64,000 nt of DNA from Nitrospira sp. GTDB taxonomy: Bacteria > Nitrospirota > Nitrospiria > Nitrospirales > Nitrospiraceae. The notes beneath the pieces are model-generated. The model was given only the letters and a program-made list of their open reading frames with translations. It ran no database searches and had not been told where the DNA came from. Positions within the stretch are counted from its first letter, which is position 1, and each line of letters begins with the position of its first letter. Position numbers and translations under genes: made by a program. The stretch lies in assembly GCA_024998685.1 (NCBI GenBank), contig JACOEH010000023.1, positions 1 to 64,000 of the forward strand, read 5' to 3'. Of the stretch, positions 9,112 to 22,917 are shown piece after piece.

Positions 9112-10608
9112 CTAACCACCGAGCGGAGAACTCGGAGGAACCACAGTAGCCGAAGGACCGAGAAAATTCGCAAACATGAGCGTCGCGCTGACCACCCAGT
9201 CTGTGAACGGTTGCGGGTAAATACCGATCACCAAAGTTCCGGCCAAACCGACATAGATCACCGCCTTCATCGGGCTCGAAATTCCGATGGGAGAGGGATC
9301 CACCGGCTCATTGATATACATCTGCTTCACGACGATAAGGTAATAGTACATCGAGATCACGATGTTGATCAGCCCGACCGCAATCAATGTATAGAGCCCT
9401 TCTTTGATGGCCGCCACGAAAATGTAAAGTTTACCGATAAACCCCGCGAGAGGTGGCACACCGGCCAGAGACAGCAGGAACAGCAACATCGCGAACGCCA
9501 GAAACGGCGACCGTCTGTTTAAGCCTCGGTAGTCCTCGATTTCATCTCTTCCAATGACCTGGCCGACCGCAATCACGACAGCGAAGGCCCCGATATTGGC
9601 AAACAGGTACGCCAGAAGATAAAACAAAACGGCGTCACTTCCCATTTTGGTGCCCGCCGCCAGACCGATCAACACGTTTCCGACTTGAGCGATGCCCGAA
9701 TACGCCAGCAGCCGTTTTATGTTGCGTTGGGCTATTGCGACGATATTGCCATAGGTCATCGAGAGGATAGACACAGCCACCAACAAAGACACCCATAACG
9801 GCTTGAACGTTCCCAACGCCACCAAGAAGATCCGGAGCAAGATCGCAAAGGCCGCGGCCTTTGGAGCGATCGATAAGAACGTTGTCACAGGTGTGGGAGC
9901 CCCGTGGTAGGTATCGGGAATCCATGTGTGGAATGGGACGGCCCCGATCTTAAATCCAAGGGAAGCAAAGATCAGCAGAAACCCGATGATTAAACCGGGT
10001 GTGGCCTGCGTGGACGCCATGTCCGAAAAGACGAGCTTGCCGGTTTCACCATAGACCAGGCTGATCCCATAGGCGAGCAGGCCGGCCGCAAAGACACCCA
10101 GGATAAAAAACTTGAGTCCTCCTTCGTTAGAAGCCAAATCATCGCGCAGATACGATGCCAAAATATAGAACCCTAGTGTCGCAAACTCCAAGCTGACGAA
10201 GACGGACAGAAGATCGTTGGCGGACGCCATGAACATCATGCCGAGTGCCGCCATGACGACGAGGCAATAATATTCTCCCCTGAAAAAAGTGAAGCGATTG
10301 ACGTACTCGATTGATGCGAGGATGACGAGTATCGTAGCCCCAAGAATAAAGATCTTGAAAAAGATCGCCATGCGATCCAGCACGAACATGTTGCTGAAGA
10401 GCGTGCCGGAGATATGATTGAGGTCAAACCATCCCAAACAGCCGAGTGTGACCACAAGCCCGGCAACACTGAGATAGGCGAGTCGCTCCTTGGGTAAGCG
10501 CGGAAGGGAAAAATCAACGATGAGCACCACACAAAGCCAGCAGGTCAGCAAGATCTCCGGCAATAAAAGCAGCAGGTCGGAGAAAGTCATGTTCAGCGAA
10601 AATGTCAT
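9112..10608 (-). CDS. nuoN: Complex I antiporter-like subunit NuoN
   Basis: The 498-residue multi-spanning protein belongs to the membrane arm and carries one of the proton channels. The proton-pathway motifs are intact: the TM5 glutamate in FVSLEFATLGFYILA, the TM7 lysine in GFKIGAVPFHTWIPD, and the TM8 lysine in SIAPKAAAFAILLR. Its length fits the family. The start codon overlaps the nuoM stop (ATGA), so it is translationally coupled as the last gene of the cluster. Its downstream end is followed by a 108-base gap and then a signalling operon. Confidence 0.96.
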   Translation of the reverse strand: MTFSLNMTFSDLLLLLPEILLTCWLCVVLIVDFSLPRLPKERLAYLSVAGLVVTLGCLGWFDLNHISGTLFSNMFVLDRMAIFFKIFILGATILVILASIEYVNRFTFFRGEYYCLVVMAALGMMFMASANDLLSVFVSLEFATLGFYILASYLRDDLASNEGGLKFFILGVFAAGLLAYGISLVYGETGKLVFSDMASTQATPGLIIGFLLIFASLGFKIGAVPFHTWIPDTYHGAPTPVTTFLSIAPKAAAFAILLRIFLVALGTFKPLWVSLLVAVSILSMTYGNIVAIAQRNIKRLLAYSGIAQVGNVLIGLAAGTKMGSDAVLFYLLAYLFANIGAFAVVIAVGQVIGRDEIEDYRGLNRRSPFLAFAMLLFLLSLAGVPPLAGFIGKLYIFVAAIKEGLYTLIAVGLINIVISMYYYLIVVKQMYINEPVDPSPIGISSPMKAVIYVGLAGTLVIGIYPQPFTDWVVSATLMFANFLGPSATVVPPSSPLGG

Positions 10609-12311
10609 TCTCGGCCCCCTCGTGAGACCTGAGGCGTATGGGATATGGACTTGTGTGCGGCCTGCGGTGCAGAAGTCTTCTCCGGCGGCGTCGCCTTACT
10701 CCTCATCCCTACTCCTTCACCGGTTTCCGCGACCGGAACAACAAGCGTAATCCTCGCAACCAACGGATCCACTCCGGAACGGACGACATCATATAAGTGC
10801 ATCGGAAAAATTCCGAACCCTACACTGACGGCAATCATGATCAACAGAGGCAGGCGATCGACCGTAGAAATCGCATCGTGCGCGTGACTGTACTTTTGGT
10901 TCATTGGGCCGTAAAAAAGCCCGCGCATCATTTTAAACAGGTACGCCAACGTCAGCACGATGCCCAGCATGGCGACAATCACTTGGAGCGGATACTTATT
11001 CCAGCTACCGACAATGATCATGATTTCCGCGATAAAATTCACCGTGCCGGGCATCCCGATCGACGCCATACAAGCTACGACAAAGCAGGCAGAAATGAAG
11101 GGCATTTTGTTCGAGAGACCGCCCAATGATGGAATATCACGGCTATGGGTTTGATCATAGACCCATCCCGCCATCGCGAAGAGCATGCCGGTCGCCATCG
11201 CATGGGCGAACATATAGATCACAGCCCCGCTCAAACTGATGTAATTCAAAGCCGCCATGCCGAGAAACACATAGCCCATGTGACTGGAACTGGAATAGCC
11301 GATCACGTATTTGGTGTCTTTGGCATAAAACGCAACGAAGCCACCGTAAATAATGCTGAACATGCACAGAACGGCAGCGATCGGCATCAATTCCCTGGTC
11401 GTCTCAGGGAGAATTTCAAAGGCCACCCGAATAATGGAAAAGTGTCCCAGCTTCATCAAGACTCCCGCGTGAAGCATGCTGGTCGCCGCCGGCGCAGCCG
11501 CATGGCCGACCGGAGACCAGGAATGCAAGGGCCACAGCGGGGCGATCGACGCAAAGCCGAAGAAGACCAACACCCAGATAATCTTGTCCAACGTCGTCCC
11601 CAGCACGGGAATATTCATGAGATTGGCCTGTTCTCGGAGCACCAAAATATCAAAAGTGTTCAGGCCGGAAAATTTATAAATGAGTAGAATGCCCATCAGT
11701 GCGACGACGGCAAAAGCGGACAGGAAAAGCACCAGCTTCATCGCCGCATACTCTTTGCTGTTTGACCCAAAATTCAAAATGAAGCCGACCGAGTCTCTCT
11801 TCTTCAACCCTTCCGGGTCGGTCATCTCCAAATACTTTTTGGTGTGGCTGCCCCACATGCCCAACAACAAGTACATCGGGATGACGGACATCTCGTAGAA
11901 GAAGTAGAGGAAGAACAGGTCGAGGGACATGAACACACCGATCGTGGCGGCTGCCAAGATCAGCAACCAGATGTAAAACTCCTTTGTGCGGTCCTTGATA
12001 TGCCAAGAGACGAAGATGCCGGCAAACAGCAAAATCGATGAGGCAAGGACGAGCGGAGTCCCGATCCCGTCGACCCCAAGGTACAAGGAAATGCCGAGCT
12101 GTTTGGACCACTCATACTTTTGGATAAACTGGAATCCGCCTTTCACCGGATCGTACGCATAAAAGAGGTACAGCGACGCAATCAGCGATACGAAGGCGGC
12201 GCTCGTCGCTATGCTTCGAACGAGCAGGGGTTGCCGATTGGACACAAAAATCAAGGCCAGGGCTCCTGCGAACGGAGCGAAGAGGATATAGAGCAGTGCG
12301 TACTCTCCCAT
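10605..12311 (-). CDS. nuoM: Second, divergent NuoM-type proton-pumping subunit (NuoM2)
   Basis: The 568-residue antiporter-like subunit is clearly NuoM-related: TM5 glutamate E140 in YFFYEMSVIPMYLLLG, TM8 lysine K287 in GVLMKLGHFS, and TM12 glutamate in GTVNFIAEIMII. It differs from the neighbouring NuoM in three ways. I256 replaces the TM7 lysine in GFASIAPLWPLHSW. There is an extra loop of about 25 residues between TM5 and TM6 (around 155-185). A hydrophilic tail of some 45 residues follows the last helix. It is the fourth pump-type subunit of the cluster. It starts 8 bases after the other nuoM ends. Confidence 0.93.
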   Translation of the reverse strand: MGEYALLYILFAPFAGALALIFVSNRQPLLVRSIATSAAFVSLIASLYLFYAYDPVKGGFQFIQKYEWSKQLGISLYLGVDGIGTPLVLASSILLFAGIFVSWHIKDRTKEFYIWLLILAAATIGVFMSLDLFFLYFFYEMSVIPMYLLLGMWGSHTKKYLEMTDPEGLKKRDSVGFILNFGSNSKEYAAMKLVLFLSAFAVVALMGILLIYKFSGLNTFDILVLREQANLMNIPVLGTTLDKIIWVLVFFGFASIAPLWPLHSWSPVGHAAAPAATSMLHAGVLMKLGHFSIIRVAFEILPETTRELMPIAAVLCMFSIIYGGFVAFYAKDTKYVIGYSSSSHMGYVFLGMAALNYISLSGAVIYMFAHAMATGMLFAMAGWVYDQTHSRDIPSLGGLSNKMPFISACFVVACMASIGMPGTVNFIAEIMIIVGSWNKYPLQVIVAMLGIVLTLAYLFKMMRGLFYGPMNQKYSHAHDAISTVDRLPLLIMIAVSVGFGIFPMHLYDVVRSGVDPLVARITLVVPVAETGEGVGMRSKATPPEKTSAPQAAHKSISHTPQVSRGGRE

Positions 12312-12319
12312 AGGACGAC

Positions 12320-13879
12320 CTAATATCCTCGTCTCATCTGGATACTTTCAATTGACGCCGTCGTCTCATGATGGAGCCGATCAACGAGCGCTTGGACAGA
12401 TCCGTTCATGATTCGTAGGAACGGTGACGGATAGAGTCCGATCCAGAGAATCATGACCGACAGTGATACTGCGATGATCGTCTCGCGCGGTTGCAAGTCG
12501 CTCATCGTCCCCTTTACTGCCGCACCCAACGGCCCTAACATCGAACGTTCGTAGTACCAGAGAAAATACGCCGCTCCGAAAATCACCCCTAGAACGGCGA
12601 CGGCTCCGAACCACCATTTGGCTTTGAATGCTCCCAAAAGGATGAGAAACTCGCCCACAAAACCGTTGGTGCCGGGAAGCCCGATCGATGCCAGCCCGAT
12701 GATAAGAAAGAAGGTCGCCAGGAGAGGCGCTTGTTTCGCCATTCCGCCGAACGCCGCCAACTGAGTCGTCTGCTGCCGAGAATAGAGAAACCCCGCGATA
12801 AAGAAGAGCCCTGCCGTGCTGAAGCCCAGATTGATCATCGTGAGCAAGCTGCCTTGCAGACCTTGGTAGTTCAATGCAAACAGCCCGACGACGACAAAGC
12901 CAAGATGGCTGACGCTACTGTAGGCCAGTAAACGCCGAAAATCGGCTTGAACCAACGCCATCCAAGCTCCATAGAGAATCGCACAGAGCCCGAGCACGAC
13001 GACGACCATGACGACCGTCTCGCTTTTCGACGCATCGGGCAGCAAGGGAATGCTGAAGCGCATGAAACCGTAGGTGCCCAGCTTCAGACCAGCCAACACC
13101 ACGGCCATCCCGATCGGGCCTTCCAACAGCGCATCAGGCAGCCATGTGTGGAAGGGAAACACCGGTGCCTTGAACGCAAATCCTAGGAACATCAGCCAAA
13201 AAATGACGAGTTGCTGAGAGACCGGAATCGGAACCGTCAGGAGTTCGAGCAGATCAAACGAATAAATCTGATCCGTGTGATGCAGCGAAGCCCATTGATG
13301 GTAATTGATATTCAGCAACGCGATGCCTACGAGCATAAACACACTGCCCAAGAGCGTATACAGGACGAACTTCAGCGCAGCATAGTGACGTTCGCTCCCT
13401 CCTCCCCAAAGTTTGATCAAGAAGTAGCTGGGGATCAGCATCAGCTCCCAGAACACAAAGAACAGGATCAAATCCAGCGACACGAAGACGCCCATCGTCG
13501 TCGTCTCGAGCGCCAAGAGACACATCATGTAGAGTTTGACTTGATGTCGGATCGTATCCCAGGAGTAAATCACCACCAAGACCGTCAGAAAAGCCGTGAG
13601 CCCGACGAATAACACGCTGATTCCATCGACTGCCAGGTGATAGCTGATGCCTAACGCCGGAATCCATCGGACATGCTCTGTGAACTGCATGGCGGCCGAT
13701 TCCGGCACGAACCGCAGCAGGACAAATACAGAGAGTGCGAGCTCCACCAGTGCAATAGTGAGAGCTGAGGTCCGAACCATATCTTCTTCATCGAACAGCC
13801 AGAGCACGGTCGCCCCGACAATCGGAAGAAATAGGATGCAGGACAGAATCGGAAATCCGGCTGTGAGCTCTTCGAGCAT
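12320..13879 (-). CDS. nuoM: Complex I antiporter-like subunit NuoM (canonical, NuoM1)
   Basis: The 519-residue membrane-arm subunit has all expected channel residues: the TM5 glutamate in FFVFWELMLIPSYFLI, the TM7 lysine in GFAFKAPVFPFHTWLPDA, the TM8 lysine in LAGLKLGTYGFMR and the TM12 glutamate in NGFVGEFLILLG. It is the usual length for NuoM. It lies between nuoL (24 bases upstream) and the divergent second nuoM. The two NuoM proteins are too different to be a recent tandem copy. Confidence 0.95.
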   Translation of the reverse strand: MLEELTAGFPILSCILFLPIVGATVLWLFDEEDMVRTSALTIALVELALSVFVLLRFVPESAAMQFTEHVRWIPALGISYHLAVDGISVLFVGLTAFLTVLVVIYSWDTIRHQVKLYMMCLLALETTTMGVFVSLDLILFFVFWELMLIPSYFLIKLWGGGSERHYAALKFVLYTLLGSVFMLVGIALLNINYHQWASLHHTDQIYSFDLLELLTVPIPVSQQLVIFWLMFLGFAFKAPVFPFHTWLPDALLEGPIGMAVVLAGLKLGTYGFMRFSIPLLPDASKSETVVMVVVVLGLCAILYGAWMALVQADFRRLLAYSSVSHLGFVVVGLFALNYQGLQGSLLTMINLGFSTAGLFFIAGFLYSRQQTTQLAAFGGMAKQAPLLATFFLIIGLASIGLPGTNGFVGEFLILLGAFKAKWWFGAVAVLGVIFGAAYFLWYYERSMLGPLGAAVKGTMSDLQPRETIIAVSLSVMILWIGLYPSPFLRIMNGSVQALVDRLHHETTASIESIQMRRGY

Positions 13880-13903
13880 AGACGCAACCTAGTGAGTAAA
13901 CCT

Positions 13904-15880
13904 CTACATCTGAGCAAACAATTGAACGACAAGAGCCAGAAGGAAAATTCCCGCAACGATGATGGCGGCATAATGATGGACCATTCCACTCTGCATCTTT
14001 CGACCTTCGCGAGCCGCGAGATGATTTCCATAGCCGATCGCGTTAAGTCCCGCATAGACGATGTGCTTTTCGATCCATGTAGAGCCGAAAGCGCCAAAAT
14101 CGGCAAGTCGCCCCACTCCCCGCACGAGCCCGTCTATGACCGTACGATCGAACCAGTCGAGCATTACGCCCAAACGTTTGAGCGGTTCCACGAACATGAG
14201 ATCGTAGAGTTCATCAACGTAGTACTTATTCAATAAGATCCGATACGCAGCGTGAAATCTCTCTGCCCATCCATCCGGAGTCGCCGGACTCACAACATAG
14301 AGAAAATGCGCGAGTCCCCAGCCCATCAAGGCAATGATGATCGCAACGCTCATCAACAAAAACATTATGCCGGCACCGGCCTCATGCTCGCCCCCCACCC
14401 CGACGACCGGTCCCAAAAATCCGTGCAACCATCCATGTTCCGGCGGAAACCCCAAGATCAATCCACCGACGATCGAGAGGAAGGCAAGGACCATCAAAGG
14501 GGCGACCATGATCATGGGAGATTCGTGCACATGCTCAGCCGTATGATGCTCCATCCGAGAAGAACCGTAGAACGTCAGATAGGTCAGACGGAACATATAG
14601 AAAGATGTCATCAGCGCTCCGGCGGCCGCCATGCTGTACAGGAGATAGTGCTGATTGGTGAAGGCATGGGCCATAATTTCATCTTTGCTCCAGAAGCCCG
14701 CGAGGGGAGGAAGCCCGGCGATGGCAATGGTGCCGATCAGAAACAGACGATGGGTCCATGGAATTCTGCTGCTCAGTCCGCCCATCTTGCGGATATCCTG
14801 TTCTCCCGACAATGCATGGATCACCGACCCCGCCGCCAAGAACAACAACGCCTTGAAAAACGCATGGGTCATGACATGAAACACGGATGCCGTGTAGGCA
14901 CCGATTCCACAACCGAGAAACATGTATCCGAGCTGACTTACCGTCGAATAGGCCAAGACCCGTTTGATGTCGGTCTGGACGAGTCCGATCGTCGCCGCAA
15001 ACAAGGCGGTACCCCCACCGACGAACGCCACCGTCGCCATCGCGAACGGTGAGAGATCGAAGATCGCGTGATTACGCACGATCATGTAGACCCCCGCCGT
15101 CACCATCGTCGCCGCATGGATCAACGCGCTCACCGGAGTCGGCCCTTCCATCGCATCGGGAAGCCATGTGTGCAGAGGCAGCTGCGCGGACTTCCCGATC
15201 GCACCCACAAGCAGACAGAGAGCTATGGCGGTGGCCATGTCCGGAGACAGTTGCCCGACATGGGCAAACACCTTTGTATAGTCGAGAGTCTTAAAGTTGA
15301 TAAAGACAAGAAATATGGCGACGAGAAATCCCGCGTCGCCGATCCGGTTGACGACAAACGCTTTGGATGCGGCTTTGGCGGCTGACACCTTGTCATAGTA
15401 ATAGCCGATCAAGAGATACGAACAGAGCCCGACACCCTCCCAACCGATAAAGAGCACGACATAGTTGTTCCCCATGACAAGAAGCAACATGGAGACCATG
15501 AATAGATTCATGTAGGTGAAGAAACGCGTGAATCCGGTTTCTCCATGCATATAGCCGACGGAATAGACGTGAATGAGAAACCCGACACCGGTGACGATCA
15601 GCAACCAGACACAGGTCAGGGGATCAACCAGGTAGGCCAAATTAATCGTGAGATCGCCGCCGAAAATCCACTGATAGACAATGACTTCATGTGAAATTCC
15701 CGTACGCATGACATCGGTGAATACGCCGACCGTACAGAGAAACGATAGGCCGACCGACCCCCAGGCCAATCGATGAGCCATATCGTGAGAGTAGCGGTGT
15801 CCGAGCAGTCCATTGCCAAGGACCGCGAGCAACGGGAAAACAGGAATCAATTTGATAAGGAGATCAGTCAAATCAGACAC
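13904..15880 (-). CDS. nuoL: Complex I subunit NuoL with an enlarged lateral helix
   Basis: The 658-residue distal pump subunit has VLFIGWEGVGLCSYLLIGYY, GAIGKSAQLPLHTWLPDAME and ALIHAATMVTAGVY, all family hallmarks. NuoL also carries the amphipathic helix that runs along the membrane arm. Here the stretch between the conserved LYD motif (near residue 555) and the final membrane helix is about 28 residues longer than in the E. coli and Thermus proteins as I recall them. That would let the helix span one more pump subunit. The start is a GTG at 15880. A 134-base gap separates the gene from nuoK. Confidence 0.95.
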   Translation of the reverse strand: MSDLTDLLIKLIPVFPLLAVLGNGLLGHRYSHDMAHRLAWGSVGLSFLCTVGVFTDVMRTGISHEVIVYQWIFGGDLTINLAYLVDPLTCVWLLIVTGVGFLIHVYSVGYMHGETGFTRFFTYMNLFMVSMLLLVMGNNYVVLFIGWEGVGLCSYLLIGYYYDKVSAAKAASKAFVVNRIGDAGFLVAIFLVFINFKTLDYTKVFAHVGQLSPDMATAIALCLLVGAIGKSAQLPLHTWLPDAMEGPTPVSALIHAATMVTAGVYMIVRNHAIFDLSPFAMATVAFVGGGTALFAATIGLVQTDIKRVLAYSTVSQLGYMFLGCGIGAYTASVFHVMTHAFFKALLFLAAGSVIHALSGEQDIRKMGGLSSRIPWTHRLFLIGTIAIAGLPPLAGFWSKDEIMAHAFTNQHYLLYSMAAAGALMTSFYMFRLTYLTFYGSSRMEHHTAEHVHESPMIMVAPLMVLAFLSIVGGLILGFPPEHGWLHGFLGPVVGVGGEHEAGAGIMFLLMSVAIIIALMGWGLAHFLYVVSPATPDGWAERFHAAYRILLNKYYVDELYDLMFVEPLKRLGVMLDWFDRTVIDGLVRGVGRLADFGAFGSTWIEKHIVYAGLNAIGYGNHLAAREGRKMQSGMVHHYAAIIVAGIFLLALVVQLFAQM

Positions 15881-16014
15881 AGTATTGTGCCATTCTGAGG
15901 ATGCTCAGCTAGCCAACCATGCTGCACGGAGCCGGAACCTAAAGCGTACTCTTGGTGTACGTTGAGGGATACGAGCCACCGACTGCACCGTTGGATGTGA
16001 TGGTCCACATCCTG

Positions 16015-16317
16015 CTACCACTTCAATAGGTTCATCTCATCCACATTCGTGGAAATCTTGCCTCTGAACACGACGATGATGATTGCCAAACCGACAGCCG
16101 CTTCGCCCGCCGCAATGGCGATGATGAACAGAGCCACAAGTTGCCCCGCCATAGATTCCAAATAATGCGAAAAGGCGACTAAATTGATATTGGCCGCATT
16201 CATCATGATTTCAACCGACATCAGCACAATGATGAAGTTTCGTCTAATAAGCACACCCAAGAGTCCCGTCATAAAAAGAACGGCGCTGACGGCTGTATAG
16301 GCGGACAGGGGAATCAT
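16015..16317 (-). CDS. nuoK: Complex I subunit NuoK
   Basis: The 100-residue, three-helix membrane subunit has both conserved glutamates of the NuoK half-channel: E36 in MSVEIMMNAANIN and E71-72 in AIAAGEAAVGLAI. Its length is typical. The ATG overlaps the nuoJ stop by 4 bases (TTATGA), so translation is coupled. Together with NuoJ it forms part of the link between the quinone site and the pump subunits. Confidence 0.96.
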   Translation of the reverse strand: MIPLSAYTAVSAVLFMTGLLGVLIRRNFIIVLMSVEIMMNAANINLVAFSHYLESMAGQLVALFIIAIAAGEAAVGLAIIIVVFRGKISTNVDEMNLLKW

Positions 16318-16841
16318 AACCGTTCTCTCTCCGTATCCAGCGGTTTCGGAGTCTTGGCCAAGACAATGGCGCCGATAATGGCTCCGAGCAGAAAGATGCC
16401 GACGATCTCAAATTGCAAAAGATGGTCGCTGAACATCTTGATACCCACGGCGTATGTATCTCCATCTTGCAGCACGGCAGCGGCCGGAGCATCCCCCTTT
16501 ACCCCACCGAACGGAGATCCCAGGAGAAGATACAGAACGTAACCGGTCCCCATGACGGCTGGACCGAGAATATACATGGCCGAGGAGTGGAAATAACGTT
16601 CATCCGTTTTGAGATTCATCAACATCAACACAAAGAGGTACAGCACCAGAATGGCCCCGACGTAGACAATGACCTGCACGGCCCACAGGAACTCCGCGTT
16701 CAGGAGGATGAACAGGCCGGAGACGTGCATGAGCAACACGAGCAGAGAGAGCGCGCAATGAACAGGGTGACGCAAGGTTACCGTCAAAACACCGGCGGCA
16801 ATACTGACCAATGCAAAATACGCGAAAAACATTCCGACCAT
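16314..16841 (-). CDS. nuoJ: Complex I subunit NuoJ
   Basis: The 175-residue membrane subunit has five predicted helices. It carries the conserved TM3 segment VQVIVYVGAILVLYLFV, which includes the family tyrosine, and ends in a charged tail. The length matches the family. It sits between nuoI and nuoK in the standard order, with a 9-base gap to nuoI and a 4-base overlap with nuoK. Confidence 0.95.
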   Translation of the reverse strand: MVGMFFAYFALVSIAAGVLTVTLRHPVHCALSLLVLLMHVSGLFILLNAEFLWAVQVIVYVGAILVLYLFVLMLMNLKTDERYFHSSAMYILGPAVMGTGYVLYLLLGSPFGGVKGDAPAAAVLQDGDTYAVGIKMFSDHLLQFEIVGIFLLGAIIGAIVLAKTPKPLDTERERL

Positions 16842-16850
16842 ATGCGCGGC

Positions 16851-17438
16851 TCAGCTCAGATGTTTGGGAGGTGGTTGGGTCGACTTCTGTACCGACTGGG
16901 GAAAATAGTAGCGGTACTCGCGGCTCTGCTCGACATTTTTCTCCTGATTGTGCGCATACAAATATTTCTTCCCATCATCGAGGTGGCGTTCGCCGATATC
17001 GTACAGCCGTTTCTTGTCGAACAGCAGACTGCGTTTGTCGTGAGTTGAATATTCGTACATTTTAGTCATCGCCAATGCGTTCACCGGACATGCTTCGACG
17101 CAATAACCGCAGAAAACGCATTTGGTTATGTCGATATAGAACTCGCTGGCATAGCGCTGAAGCGGTCGTGCCGTATCCTCGGCACTGATTACTTTGATGC
17201 AATGCGAGGGGCAGGCGACCTCGCAGAGATCGCAGCCGACGCACCGTTCTTGCCCATCATCATATCGAAGCAAGCCGAGTGCACCGCGATGCGTATCCGG
17301 GATCGTTCGGTGTTCCCGCGGATACTGAAACGTCATCGGCCGATGAAGCATGTGCCGAAACGTGACCTTCATCGCATCCCAAATCTCATAGAATAACGCG
17401 GCATGCAGGACTTTTTTGGTCAGCGCTGCGACGCTCAT
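16851..17438 (-). CDS. nuoI: Complex I iron-sulfur subunit NuoI
   Basis: The 195-residue peripheral-arm subunit binds two [4Fe-4S] clusters (N6a and N6b) through CVGCDLCEVACP and CVFCGYCVEACP. These pass electrons from NuoG towards the quinone-site cluster in NuoB. The N terminus carries the usual amphipathic membrane-contact segment. GAGGAG stands 5 bases before the ATG. In most bacteria nuoH precedes nuoI, but here only 32 bases lie between nuoG and nuoI, so nuoH is absent from this position. Confidence 0.96.
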   Translation of the reverse strand: MSVAALTKKVLHAALFYEIWDAMKVTFRHMLHRPMTFQYPREHRTIPDTHRGALGLLRYDDGQERCVGCDLCEVACPSHCIKVISAEDTARPLQRYASEFYIDITKCVFCGYCVEACPVNALAMTKMYEYSTHDKRSLLFDKKRLYDIGERHLDDGKKYLYAHNQEKNVEQSREYRYYFPQSVQKSTQPPPKHLS

Positions 17439-17470
17439 CCTAGCTCCTCGTCACGGACGTAGATATCCGC

Positions 17471-20164
17471 TTACGCCTGTTCAACACTTACCCAGATCTG
17501 CTTGAACGACGGGACACCGGTCGTGGCATCAACCGACACGGGCATCAAGTCCTTCACTGGCGGTTCATTAAAATGTTCAGGAAAAAAACAGGTGCCTGGC
17601 GCGATGGACTGATCGAATTGCACGCCGAGCTGAAGGGAACCACGGTCCGAGGTCAAACGCACCTTCGCACCGTCTTGCAATCCGAGACGCTCCATATCCT
17701 GTATGTTCATGCGCAGCTTGCCGGTGTTCGGAGCGATCTTGATAAGCCCGGACGCTTGCGTCGACAATTTCCCCGAATGCACTAATAACTGCCCCATCAC
17801 CAGGGAAAAAGGACGCGTGTGCTCTCGCGCCGGCGAAGTCTGTTGATACCGGGCTATGACCTCTGCTGCATAGCCGTTGGACAAATACTGGTCAGGGACG
17901 GGCACGACTTTACGGGGTTGTCCGAGATTATAATATCCGGGCAACAGCTTCATGATCTCGGCTTGAATATCATTGGCCGACTGGTATTCCCATCGGCATC
18001 CCATGGCATTCGCAAGCGCTGTCATGATGTGCCAGTCCGGCAGGCTCTCTCCAAGCGGATCCATCGCCTGACGAACGCGGAGCACACGACCTTCAAGGTT
18101 TGTAAATGTGCCATCCTTCTCCGCATAGGTGCAAGCGGGCAGCACAAAATGAGCCAATTTCCCCGTATCTGTCAAAAAAGGATCCTGCACGACTAACAGT
18201 TCGAGTCGTTCGAGAGCGGCTCGCACCTCCATTGAAGCCGGCAAGGTCGCGAGCGGATTTTCACCCAGGATGTATAAGGCTTTAATCTGCCTACTCTTGC
18301 ATCGCCTCAAAATTTCGATGAGATGCGCTCCTGATCCGACCGGAGGTAGCGACGCCTCCCATGCTTTGGCGAAACGGTCCCGAACTCCTGGGTCATCAAA
18401 CCGAGCCTGGCCCGGGAAAAACTCAGGTACCGCGCCCATATCAACGGCCCCTTGCTCATTCGGCTCCTCCGTCACTGTGCTCACACCACAACCTGTTCGT
18501 CCGAGCTTTCCGGTGATCCAAGCGAGATCCATCAATTTCAAGACGTTCTGATAGCCGTTCGTTCGCCGAACAATCCCTTCCGCACACAAGATGATCGACC
18601 TCGACGATTCGGCAAAAATAGCCGCAATTTCTCGGAAGGCTTCCACGGGAAAGCCGGTCTGCGCAGTTAGCCGCTCCAGCGAAACATCCCGCACCGCGAT
18701 CTTGAGCGCTTCAAACGCTTGAGGATGTTTTCCAACAGTCTCTTCATCAACCAAATCCTCATCGATGGTCGCCTTGACCAACCCATCGATCACTGCTCCC
18801 TCTGTCCCAGGCTTGATCAAAAACGGGTGCGATGCCAATTTCGCAATATTCGTGATGGCGCTGTCGAGCGTCACCACCTGAGCCTTGTAGACCCGCATGG
18901 CTTCCTTGATTCGCACGGCCGTCAACGGGTTCGTTTCGGTAATATTGGAGCCGATCAAAATGATCGCTTTCGCTTTCGTCAGATCTTCCCAATCATTCGG
19001 CGTCCTCCCCAGCCCGACGGCATGTTTGGACGCGAGCACAAAGTTCATATGGCCGTAGCGGGCGCTACTATCAAGCTGGTTGGTTCCAAAACCAGCGCGC
19101 ATGAGCTTCTGAAACAAATACAGCTCTTCATTCGTACAGCGGGCAGTCACGAGGCCACCGATGGATTCAGCACCGTACTTGCTTTTGATTTCGGTCAACC
19201 GGTCTACGAGCAGATGCATAGTTTCCAGCCAAGGTTTCTGCACCAATTGACCCCCTTCGCGGACCAGAGGCTGTGTAAGTCGCTGTTCACTGTCTAGATA
19301 TTCGAACCCAAAACGTCCACGTACGCAGATCCCACCGTGCCCCTTGGCAGTTTCCGATCGGTCTCCCCACTTGTTCTTCCAAGATAAGGGAGAGGTGACT
19401 CGGACCACCTCTTCATCTTTCGTTTCCAAGTAGAGTTGGCAACCGTCTCCACAGTAATTACAGGTCGTCGTCGTCGTCTTCATCTGCCACGGTTTATACA
19501 GATACTTAGAAAACTTGTTCGTGATGGCGCCGACTGGACAGACTGCTAAACAATCTCCGCAGAATTCACAATCGAGGGCGCGGTCGCCCTTTGCCACAAC
19601 CTGGTTGAATCCACCCTTCTTCATGAACTGCAAGGCATCGATCATCAACACATCCTTGCAAACATTGATGCATTCCGCACAGGCAATGCAGCGATTCATG
19701 TTGAAGTCGAGCACGGGGCTGCGCGTATCTTCCGGAATGAATTTCTGTTTGGTATTGGCTAGATTTGTCACGCCATGTTGGAAAGCCATATCTTGAAGTT
19801 CGCAATGGCCGTCCGCATCGCACACCGGGCAGTCAAGAGGATGCACGGACAGGTGTTTCTCGACGGCTTTCTTTCGGGCGAGAAAGAGATCTTCTCCTTC
19901 TGTCCGGATGACCATTCCCGCCGTCGCCTTGGCGGTGCACGACCGAACGGGAGCCTTTTTCCCTTCTTGCATGACGAGGCACATCCCGCAAGAACCGAAC
20001 GGATCGAATGTATAGTGATAGCACATGGCCGGGATGATCTTGCCCGTCATGGCGATGACGTCATACAACGACACCCCGTCCCTTGCCATGACGGATTTCC
20101 CGTCGATGCTCAATTCGATCGTTGCCGCTTCAACGTCTGGATTAGTAGCCGGCTTCAAACCCAT
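17471..20164 (-). CDS. nuoG: Complex I iron-sulfur/molybdopterin-like subunit NuoG
   Basis: The 897-residue subunit has these parts in order: a ferredoxin-type [2Fe-2S] site (CYHYTFDPFGSCGMC near residue 48), the His/Cys [4Fe-4S] site HPLDCPVCDADGHC, two cysteine clusters (CIACAECINVC and CEFCGDCLAVCP), the additional CNYCGDGC site, and a long molybdopterin-oxidoreductase fold. The size is normal. NuoE and NuoF, which would feed electrons from NADH into NuoG, are not encoded nearby, so the electron donor or acceptor is open. CGAGG precedes the ATG. Confidence 0.95.
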   Translation of the reverse strand: MGLKPATNPDVEAATIELSIDGKSVMARDGVSLYDVIAMTGKIIPAMCYHYTFDPFGSCGMCLVMQEGKKAPVRSCTAKATAGMVIRTEGEDLFLARKKAVEKHLSVHPLDCPVCDADGHCELQDMAFQHGVTNLANTKQKFIPEDTRSPVLDFNMNRCIACAECINVCKDVLMIDALQFMKKGGFNQVVAKGDRALDCEFCGDCLAVCPVGAITNKFSKYLYKPWQMKTTTTTCNYCGDGCQLYLETKDEEVVRVTSPLSWKNKWGDRSETAKGHGGICVRGRFGFEYLDSEQRLTQPLVREGGQLVQKPWLETMHLLVDRLTEIKSKYGAESIGGLVTARCTNEELYLFQKLMRAGFGTNQLDSSARYGHMNFVLASKHAVGLGRTPNDWEDLTKAKAIILIGSNITETNPLTAVRIKEAMRVYKAQVVTLDSAITNIAKLASHPFLIKPGTEGAVIDGLVKATIDEDLVDEETVGKHPQAFEALKIAVRDVSLERLTAQTGFPVEAFREIAAIFAESSRSIILCAEGIVRRTNGYQNVLKLMDLAWITGKLGRTGCGVSTVTEEPNEQGAVDMGAVPEFFPGQARFDDPGVRDRFAKAWEASLPPVGSGAHLIEILRRCKSRQIKALYILGENPLATLPASMEVRAALERLELLVVQDPFLTDTGKLAHFVLPACTYAEKDGTFTNLEGRVLRVRQAMDPLGESLPDWHIMTALANAMGCRWEYQSANDIQAEIMKLLPGYYNLGQPRKVVPVPDQYLSNGYAAEVIARYQQTSPAREHTRPFSLVMGQLLVHSGKLSTQASGLIKIAPNTGKLRMNIQDMERLGLQDGAKVRLTSDRGSLQLGVQFDQSIAPGTCFFPEHFNEPPVKDLMPVSVDATTGVPSFKQIWVSVEQA

Positions 20165-20232
20165 TGTTACCTCGTTACTCGCAAGAGATCCTGCACTCCG
20201 TTTTAACGGTTAACGATTCACGTTCACGACCC

Positions 20233-21477
20233 TTAGCGGTCGCATTCACCCATCACGACATCATACGTCCCGAAGATGGTACAGGCATCCGAGATCATAT
20301 ACCCTCTGGCCATATGATCGAACGCGCCCATGTGTACAAACGAAGGAGCCCGAATCTTCAGTCGATAGGGCTTTCCTCCTCCCGTACTGACAATGTAAAA
20401 ACCCAATTCTCCTTTGTGCGCCTCTGTGCCGCAGTAGATTTCTCCAGGCGGAGCGTCGAATCCTTGCGAGAAGAGCTTGAACTGTTGGATCATGGACTCT
20501 AAGTTTGTAAAAACCCGTTCTTTTGGCGGGAGCGTCACGCTGGGAACATCCGCCATGATGGGCCCCTCCTGCATTTGCTCCAGACATTGTCGAATGATCT
20601 TGACGCTCTCGTAGAGCTCCATCACCCGAATCCAGTAGCGATCGTACGTATCCCCGTTTTTTCCGACCGGCACGCTGAACTCGCACTTTGGATAGGCACT
20701 ATAGGGCTCGTACTTGCGAAGGTCGTAGTCCACACCGGATCCACGAAGAACCGGCCCGCTCAATCCAAAACCGACCGCATCTTCGGCGGAGATCACGGCG
20801 ACCCCCTTGGTTCGCCCAAGCCAAATGCGGTTTTTCTCAAGAAACACCTGATATTCATCGATTTTCGGTGGGAAATAATTCAAAAACTGTTTGAGCTTGT
20901 CGATCAACGAGGGTGTCAAATCCCGTTCAACCCCACCGATCCGGTACCAGCTCGTCGTGAGACGAGCTCCGCATAGTTCGTCGAACCAATCGAGCAAGAT
21001 TTCCCGATCCCGAAAACAGTAAAAAAAGACGGTCATGGCACCGATGTCCAGCGCCTGGGCGCTCAGCCAAAATTGATGCCCAATGATGCGCTGAACTTCC
21101 GCAACGATCGTCCTGAGGTATTCCGCGCGCTCCGGGACTTGTAAATTCAAAAGTTTCTCAACAGCACGGCAGTAGGCAAAGTTGTTGTACATTGCGCAGA
21201 CATAATCGAGCCGATCCGTATGAGGAATGAATTGATGATACGTTCCGTCTTCAGCAAGTTTTTCTACTCCCCGGTGGAGATAGCCCATCACCGGCGTAGA
21301 CTTCACCAATCGTTCCCCTTCTAATTCTAGAATCACCTTGAGGACACCGTGCGTACTGGGATGTTGAGGCCCCATGTTGAGCAGGAGTTCCTCTGTCCGC
21401 AAAGTGGGAAGTGTCTCGCTTTCCGGACGCTCCGGGTTAATCTTATAGACAGTGGTTCTTTGATCTTCGAATGCCAT
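20233..21477 (-). CDS. nuoD: Complex I 49 kDa-type subunit NuoD
   Basis: The 414-residue protein forms the quinone-binding pocket together with NuoB. It has LNMGPQHPSTHGVL with the conserved histidine, the tyrosine in HTDRLDYV, and the C-terminal IRAPSFVHMGAFDHMARG motif. NuoC and NuoD are separate genes here, not fused as in E. coli. The gene ends 68 bases before nuoG starts. Confidence 0.96.
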   Translation of the reverse strand: MAFEDQRTTVYKINPERPESETLPTLRTEELLLNMGPQHPSTHGVLKVILELEGERLVKSTPVMGYLHRGVEKLAEDGTYHQFIPHTDRLDYVCAMYNNFAYCRAVEKLLNLQVPERAEYLRTIVAEVQRIIGHQFWLSAQALDIGAMTVFFYCFRDREILLDWFDELCGARLTTSWYRIGGVERDLTPSLIDKLKQFLNYFPPKIDEYQVFLEKNRIWLGRTKGVAVISAEDAVGFGLSGPVLRGSGVDYDLRKYEPYSAYPKCEFSVPVGKNGDTYDRYWIRVMELYESVKIIRQCLEQMQEGPIMADVPSVTLPPKERVFTNLESMIQQFKLFSQGFDAPPGEIYCGTEAHKGELGFYIVSTGGGKPYRLKIRAPSFVHMGAFDHMARGYMISDACTIFGTYDVVMGECDR

Positions 21478-21491
21478 GCAGGTGAAATATC

Positions 21492-21989
21492 CTATCGCGG
21501 AACTTCATCCAGAAAGTCAAACGTGTCTCGCCAGCCTTTACCTCTAAGTGGAAAATCCTTACGTAAAGGATAACCTTCGGTATAGTCATCCGGCATTAAA
21601 ATCCGGCGAAGGTCGGGATGATTTCGAAACCGGATACCCATCATGTCGAAGACTTCACGCTCCATGAAGTCGGCACCTTTCCAAAGATCCGTCAAGGAAT
21701 CGACCACACAATCCGCTTCAGGCACCCGCACTTTAAGTCGAATGCGATGCCGCTTCCGAATCGAGTAGAACTCCCACACGACTTCAAATCGCTCTTCGTC
21801 GTCGGGCCAATCCACGGAGCTCACATGGACGATATAATCGAAATCCATCCCGGTATCGTCGTGCAAAAATTGAGCAACTTCATGGAGTTTGTCTCGTGAG
21901 ACAGTCACCGCGACATCGCCACGCCACTCAGCCAGACCTGCAACTCCGATCGAGAACGTCTGCTGAATTCGCTGAAGCAGTGGATTCAT
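21492..21989 (-). CDS. nuoC: Complex I 30 kDa-type subunit NuoC
   Basis: The 165-residue peripheral-arm subunit has the family pattern HVSSVDWPDDEERFEVVW, followed by DLWKGADFMEREVFDMMG and the C-terminal GYPLRKDFPLRG. It binds no cofactor and stabilises NuoD. It sits 9 bases after nuoB and 14 bases before nuoD. Confidence 0.95.
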   Translation of the reverse strand: MNPLLQRIQQTFSIGVAGLAEWRGDVAVTVSRDKLHEVAQFLHDDTGMDFDYIVHVSSVDWPDDEERFEVVWEFYSIRKRHRIRLKVRVPEADCVVDSLTDLWKGADFMEREVFDMMGIRFRNHPDLRRILMPDDYTEGYPLRKDFPLRGKGWRDTFDFLDEVPR

Positions 21990-21998
21990 AACGGCGCG

Positions 21999-22526
21999 TC
22001 AGACCTTCAGACCGGCTTTGACTTGCTCCGGTTGAGTCACAAATACACGTCTCTGCATAATACGTTCCTGTAGTTTCAGGATGCCGTCCAAGAGCGCTTC
22101 CGGAGTCGGTGGGCAGCCAGGCACATAAATGTCAACGGGAATAAATCGGTCGACTCCCTGCACGACACTGTAACTATCATAGATGTTCCCTGAGGTGGCA
22201 CAAGATCCCATCGCAATCACGTATTTTGGTTCCGGCATTTGGTCGTAAATCTTTCGAATCACCGGCGCCATACGTCGGCACACGGTTCCGGCGACAATCA
22301 TCAAATCCGACTGCCGCGGCGAACCACGAAACACTCCTGCCCCAAACCGATCCATGTCGTACCGAGAAGAAACGGCGGCCATCATCTCGATGGCACAGCA
22401 GGCAAGTCCGAAGGTCATTGGCCAGAGGGAGCCCTTCCTTGCCCAGTTTACGGCTTTTTCAAGAGACCCCGTGATGACGTCCGGAGTCCCATCTTTCTCA
22501 TGTCGTCCAAGTTGGATCAGTCCCAT
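21999..22526 (-). CDS. nuoB: Complex I N2-cluster subunit NuoB
   Basis: The 175-residue protein carries the N2 [4Fe-4S] cluster next to the quinone site. The ligands lie in the tandem cysteines of [10 protein letters not shown], in [15 protein letters not shown] and in [13 protein letters not shown] take the ATG at 22526, which follows GAGG by 5 bases and lies 7 bases after the nuoA stop. A longer frame to 22583 would run back into nuoA. Confidence 0.96.
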
Positions 22527-22533
22527 ACAATCC

Positions 22534-22917
22534 TCAGTCCCATTCCAACGCACCTTTTCGCCAGGCATAAACGTAGGCCACAATGAATAGTCCTATAAAA
22601 ATCATCATTTCAATCAACCCCACCACCCCGATCTTGGTGAATACGACGGCCCACGGATAGAGAAAGATCACTTCAATGTCGAAGATGACGAACAACATCG
22701 CAAATATGTAATACCTAACGGGGAACGGCATGCGGGCGTCGGAAAACGGTTCGGCCCCACATTCGTAGGTCGATAATTTTTCTGGTTCTGGATATCTAGG
22801 CTGTACAAAATAACTGACGAGCAAGGTCACTACTCCAAAGGCCAACGTTACCAAGATAAAGAGAAAGACCGGGAAAAACTTCGTCAGATATTCAAGAAGA
22901 ACCTCAGTTCCGGTCAT
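22534..22917 (-). CDS. nuoA: Complex I subunit NuoA
   Basis: The 127-residue membrane subunit has three helices and the conserved loop [20 protein letters not shown] after TM1. It is the first gene of the cluster. Upstream on the minus strand lies a TATAAT at 22960-22955 that could be the -10 box. The start codon is preceded by a moderate GAGAG. Confidence 0.96.

Follow-up and report, generated by a model that had tools for sequence, protein, structure and literature searches.

The second NuoM of a Nitrospira complex I is placed by alignment and tree in an ancient and widespread NuoM subfamily, here named His-type, all members of which have leucine or isoleucine instead of the lysine of transmembrane helix 7 (TM7) and all but one of which have a histidine on TM8. 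Its gene lies in the window (the whole 64,000-nucleotide stretch of Nitrospira DNA that was analyzed) in a cluster with the gene order nuoL, nuoM1, nuoM2, nuoN, and its product is one of four proton-pump subunits of the complex. The presence of two nuoM genes between nuoL and nuoN identifies this as a 2M complex I, a type that Chadwick et al. reportedly defined in 2018. The cluster comprises:

9112..10608, minus strand: nuoN, from its ORF translation
10605..12311, minus strand: nuoM2, encoding a His-type (TM7-lysine-free) NuoM of 568 aa, from alignment, tree and AF2 model
12320..13879, minus strand: nuoM1, encoding a Lys-type NuoM that lacks two TM8 residues and has Leu at the TM11 His348 site, from alignment
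13904..15880, minus strand: nuoL, with a lengthened HL helix, from comparison of HL segments
16015..22917, minus strand: nuoK, J, I, G, D, C, B and A, the rest of the 2M cluster, identified by reading ORF translations

Among the ORF translations between nuoA and nuoN (9112-22917) no nuoE, nuoF or nuoH was seen, and their absence from the cluster is also reported for N. moscoviensis (PMC6606698).

The nuoM2 ORF matched Pfam PF00361 in a search of its own genome, and the best solved relatives of its product are NuoM chains. An AF2 model computed with 76 sequences (mean pLDDT 90.6, pTM 0.89) superimposes on solved NuoM/NdhD chains over ~490 residues with Z-scores of 52-55 at 1.4-1.8 A, and positions residue 256 at the TM7 break and both H281 and K287 on TM8. 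The positions central to what follows, numbered where marked Ec after E. coli NuoM, are encoded by:

11892..11894, minus strand: E140 codon, the TM5 glutamate, kept (Ec E144), from alignment
11736..11738, minus strand: K192 codon, TM6 (Ec K173), kept in most of the subfamily and an alternative partner of E140, from alignment
11544..11546, minus strand: I256 codon, the TM7 lysine site (Ec K234) on the modelled TM7 helix break, from alignment and AF2 model
11469..11471, minus strand: H281 codon, TM8 (Ec L259), the diagnostic histidine of the subfamily, from alignment
11451..11453, minus strand: K287 codon, the TM8 lysine, kept (Ec K265), from alignment
11025..11027, minus strand: E429 codon, the TM12 glutamate, kept (Ec E407), from alignment
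11766..11846 (approximate limits), minus strand: TM5-TM6 insert of NuoM2, ~25-31 aa, class Nitrospiria, from alignment

An earlier sequence-only reading of this DNA had claimed that I256 stands where the other pump subunits of the cluster carry lysine, while E140, K287 and the TM12 glutamate are retained. Alignment with E. coli NuoL, NuoM and NuoN bears this out, with lysine in this column of the window's NuoL, NuoM1 and NuoN, isoleucine in NuoM2, the three retained residues matching E. coli E144, K265 and E407, and the spacing from I256 to K287 being, as had been stated, 31 residues as in E. coli. NuoM2 has the NuoM-type sequence, the 14-TM antiporter-like fold, the TM5 glutamate, the TM8 lysine and the TM12 glutamate expected of a NuoM, and departs from it in having I256 in place of the TM7 lysine that would pair with that glutamate. 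As an entire NuoM clade is without this lysine, we do not regard it as a defining feature of NuoM, though its absence does exclude NuoM2 from the lysine-type subfamily; Leu/Ile at Ec 234 (I256) combined with His at Ec 259 (H281) fits the His-type. The TM5-TM6 insert of ~25-31 aa is a separate trait of NuoM2 across class Nitrospiria, and a different insert of 19 aa occupies this position in certain His-type NuoM of Acidobacteriota, Rokubacteria and Actinomycetota.

In Nitrospirota the site is isoleucine in 81 of 81 NuoM2 proteins, against lysine in 91 of 91 NuoM1 and other K-type copies; the orthologue alignment proposed in the sequence-only reading as a way of telling selection from decay thus points to a selected absence, and orthologues with the lysine were not seen. 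NuoM2 is present in 143 of the 147 genomes of the family and was found throughout the class; whenever its neighbors are on the contig, it lies between a lysine-type NuoM and NuoN. The isoleucine codon varies synonymously (ATC at 61 loci, ATT at 23), and NuoM2 is better conserved than NuoM1 both in the sister family (about 74-79% versus 66-70%) and beyond it within the class (65-69% versus 53-56%). Because of this uniformity, near-universal presence, synonymous codon change and stronger conservation, the TM7 isoleucine, as judged from these comparisons, reflects selection rather than a sequencing slip or decay. That NuoM2 might be a decaying duplicate of NuoM1, for which the sole point is that a residue considered essential is missing, has next to no probability: a decaying recent duplicate is refuted by the same conservation, by universality in the family, by codon change that is synonymous only and by the placement of NuoM2 in a different NuoM clade. 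The lysine described earlier as lost is accordingly a real, selected absence relative to the paralogues; however, a loss peculiar to the second copy is not supported, as an old NuoM subfamily is defined by having no lysine at this site.

The extent of this subfamily, whose phyla include Bacteroidota, Verrucomicrobiota, Chloroflexota, Acidobacteriota and Planctomycetota, emerged from two kinds of searches. A pattern built from the TM8 motif of NuoM2 and given a non-Nitrospirota ending, which itself demanded the histidine, gave at least 118 hits, in Bacteroidota, Verrucomicrobiota, Acidobacteriota, Chloroflexota, Latescibacterota, Zixibacteria, Bdellovibrionota, Rokubacteria and others. All NuoM proteins found in this way have Leu or Ile at the lysine site (one fragment ends short of it), and wherever the operon is visible they are the sole NuoM between nuoL and nuoN. 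Family searches in 17 of these genomes revealed a lysine-type NuoM elsewhere in some, and no second NuoM in 6 of the 17. Pattern-independent family searches in five phyla recovered mostly lysine-type NuoM, together with His-type proteins in Chloroflexota and Planctomycetota; the few His-type genomes in the Bacteroidota-phylum draw indicate that the subfamily is not universal in that phylum. Counting only proteins found by homology and not by the histidine pattern, the Leu/Ile plus His combination occurs 81 times in Nitrospirota, seven times in the Chloroflexota-phylum draw and six times in the Planctomycetota-phylum draw, and Lys plus His never. Among 492 non-redundant NuoM-like sequences, 118 of which came from the His-demanding pattern, ~269 combine Lys234 with a residue other than His at 259, 212 combine Leu/Ile234 with His259 and none combines Lys with His. 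The only clear NuoM among the 492 with neither residue is a 2M NuoM2 from the Acidobacteriota-phylum draw (L406, 6708-8303).

In a tree computed without columns 234 and 259 (a quick, short search with no bootstrap and a midpoint root), all His-type NuoM, including that of L406, form a single clade with SH-aLRT 100; the NuoM2 of this genome (L010) lies inside it and the NuoM1 in a different NuoM clade. The TM7 lysine is most likely ancestral on present sequences, since NuoL, NuoN and MrpD-like proteins have it. The paired change at 234 and 259 arose essentially once on the tree, so their co-occurrence does not count as independent statistical support for compensation and its statistical weight is small (an independent-pairs test had just two pairs); what weight the link has derives from conservation of the pair throughout a very deep clade. 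Sites specific to the subfamily are Ec 138 and 146 on TM5, 174, 175 and 178 on TM6, 234 on TM7 and 257 and 259 on TM8, with only 249 and 354 lying elsewhere, and the residue preceding Glu144 changes from Trp to Tyr/His. Glu144, Lys265, Glu407, His322 and the TM8 histidine are invariant in all 61 non-redundant His-type sequences tested. H281 is found in every Nitrospirota NuoM2 and in no lysine-bearing NuoM. The earlier reading had held that a basic residue supplied to the site by another helix would speak against it, and H281 may in part be such a residue.

We propose that the central proton site of NuoM2 would be built differently from that of other NuoM, with the site of the TM5 glutamate remodelled around the TM8 histidine. 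The lysine of the normal TM7 Lys-TM5 Glu pair being replaced by Leu/Ile, H281, which precedes K287 by six residues on TM8 and is close to the pi-bulge, could serve as the proton partner or gate of E140. Protons would still pass between NuoM1 (on the E429 side) and NuoN (on the E140 side), and the subunit would still pump or relay. In published work the NuoL residue His254 adjoins the broken helix 7 and Glu144 of helix 5 (PMC4938563), and the NuoL TM8 histidine is described as switching between the Lys-Glu pair and alternative routes for protons (PMC13358369); at the pi-bulge, the register of H281 against NuoL H254 could be off by one position. Not every antiporter-like subunit needs the TM7 lysine: E. 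coli NuoN K217A retains 109% of wild-type pumping in proteoliposomes (PMC13073174) and HycC has Leu208 at this place. Nevertheless, a K234 substitution in E. coli NuoM is reported to abolish activity (as cited in PMC5061711), which implies that replacement at this site is not freely tolerated in a lysine-type NuoM. We give slightly better than even credence to this reading, in which NuoM2 comes from a subfamily with a remodelled site and H281 probably serves E140 in place of the lysine while relaying or pumping continues.

Another candidate partner of E140 is the TM6 lysine K192, which could take over the ion pair and leave His281 merely to tune the gate. This position is Lys in 52 of the 61 non-redundant His-type sequences, those of Nitrospirota among them, and TM6 positions 174, 175 and 178 change with the subfamily. 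However, it is just as commonly Lys in the lysine-type (118 of 128), and some His-type members have Q, E or T there, so K192 does not track the loss of the TM7 lysine, and we hold its substitution for that lysine to be improbable. It is also conceivable, if rather unlikely, that NuoM2 does not itself pump and is a charge relay or spacer between NuoN and NuoM1, for which E140, K287 and E429 suffice and the histidine is secondary. The missing lysine in all 81 NuoM2 proteins and the L406 NuoM2 with neither Lys nor His would be in keeping with such a role, as would HycC, which has Leu at the site and in which mutating E135, H222 and K239 caused no loss of H2 production (PMC9474812). Against this, the subfamily furnishes the sole NuoM of many complexes with three antiporter-like subunits, in which a subunit that was nothing but a spacer would mean one proton fewer per cycle, and the TM5 Glu, TM8 Lys, TM12 Glu and TM8 His are invariant in 61 diverse members. 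The suggestion in the sequence-only reading that NuoM2 might act only as a spacer finds no support either in the ordinary L-M-N operons of many phyla, in which the sole NuoM is of this kind and NuoL has an HL helix of normal length.

The HL segment of NuoL measures 78 residues in 2M operons versus 52-54 in single-M His-type complexes and 49 in E. coli; the window NuoL shows the lengthening of about 26 aa that marks the 2M type, and the shorter segments indicate that a His-type NuoM also works at normal arm length. We found about 75 2M operons in class Nitrospiria, five with two MrpD-like subunits replacing NuoL, and those of five genomes of the Chloroflexota draw and of one genome of the Acidobacteriota draw, and each contains a lysine-type NuoM together with a non-lysine one, arranged L, K-type, non-K-type, N. 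In the 2M complex NuoM2 adjoins NuoN and is separated from NuoL by the lysine-type NuoM1. The Nitrospirota 2M NuoL groups with lysine-type complexes (grouping with the His-type was rejected, AU p 0.04), and the best BLAST scores of the 2M NuoN are to lysine-type operons. A chimeric origin of the operon, with NuoL and NuoM1 from a lysine-type and NuoM2 and NuoN from a His-type complex, is not claimed: NuoL fits it, the NuoN tree gives no clear placement and the NuoN BLAST scores favor the lysine-type.

NuoM1 of class Nitrospiria has peculiarities of its own. A 2-residue TM8 deletion just before the lysine makes its Lys-Lys spacing 29 rather than 31, and this deletion and Leu at the TM11 His348 site occur together in 75 of 75 copies not of the Manganitrophaceae type, nearly all other NuoM having the spacing of 31 and His at that site; NuoM1 rather than NuoM2 may be the odder subunit. 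Five Manganitrophaceae-type complexes (L062-L066) are reversed, with an ordinary NuoM1 and Asp at the His348 site of NuoM2, such that each complex of class Nitrospiria has just one NuoM without this histidine. In the five-antiporter complex I, the second MrpD-like subunit likewise has no TM7 lysine and carries Asn at its site (L062 11645-13639, L064 10842-12824, L065 4903-6885, L066 3662-5533). The genome that contains the window has 20 Proton_antipo_M matches on seven contigs (C9, C12, C13, C34, C57 and C97 among them). These matches include three more NuoL-M-N sets and several sets that resemble Mrp or hydrogenases.

Each antiporter-like subunit is described as pairing a lysine on TM7 with the glutamate on TM5 (PMC10212512), and models of complex I assume this pair in every one of them, in contrast to the NuoM clade of many phyla described here. 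We suggest, tentatively and at somewhat less than even confidence, that bacteria have two anciently separate kinds of NuoM, that in the His-type the TM8 histidine and TM5 glutamate replace the TM7 Lys-Glu pair in a differently built central proton site, and that 2M complexes arise when one of each is placed in series; all mechanistic models would then rest on the lysine type. The two NuoM of the Nitrospira 2M complex are of different kinds rather than a duplicate pair with one defective member. His-type complexes offer a natural test of proton movement in complex I, and the clade includes cultivable Bacteroidota and Verrucomicrobiota. The proton stoichiometry of such a complex would address the need for the Lys-Glu pair in the middle subunit and would also separate models in which each subunit pumps from those in which only NuoL ejects protons.

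No His-type chain was found among the listed solved structures, part of whose chains were checked residue by residue, and a full-text literature search for a lysine-free NuoM returned HycC only; Chadwick et al. (2018), which lies outside the reach of that search, may contain a prior mention. The 2M complex I of Nitrospira, as presented in three papers (PMC6606698, PMC9040806, PMC12342949), has a second NuoM between NuoL and NuoN, a lengthened NuoL HL helix and nuoE/F/H outside the cluster, all three of which are shared by the window cluster. In those papers NuoM2 is treated as an extra pump and neither its missing TM7 lysine nor its TM8 histidine is mentioned; a higher proton stoichiometry of the 2M complex has been put forward in the literature as a proposal. 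With E. coli NuoM, NuoM2 shares the fold (Z 52-54), the TM5 Glu, TM8 Lys and TM12 Glu, the TM11 histidine and the TM7 break, and differs by Ile for Lys234, His for Leu259, Tyr for Trp143 and the TM5-TM6 insert. HycC of the E. coli formate hydrogenlyase, which has Leu208 at the TM7 lysine site and keeps Glu135 (TM5), Lys239 (TM8) and Glu391 (TM12) (PMC9474812, PMC5061711), is a published lysine-free precedent, likened by the residues at these sites. Unlike NuoM2, it is a single antiporter-like subunit, facing the opposite way in a hydrogenase of unproven pumping, and has Ser234 rather than His at the NuoL-like TM8 position, where His222 of a neighboring helix is said to fill the space (PMC13358369). 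With the histidine switch of NuoL and MrpA the likeness is in TM8: the histidine falls at or within one residue of its place in NuoM2, and the MrpA lysine follows six residues on, a spacing that His-type NuoM share with an MrpA-like protein of this genome. By analogy with the His and Lys of MrpA TM8, a region proposed to govern ion specificity in MrpA/NuoL (PMC4938563), the altered site might shift ion selectivity, e.g. to Na+ from H+; but MrpA retains its TM7 lysine (K196, PMC4938563; K223, PMC13073174), these data hold no sign of Na+ coupling and the subfamily comes from many habitats, making such a shift very unlikely. Both NuoL and MrpA keep the TM7 lysine, and NuoM2 aligns overall as a NuoM. 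With the histidine and without the TM7 lysine, NuoM2 is not a histidine-switch subunit of the NuoL/MrpA kind, though it may work like one.
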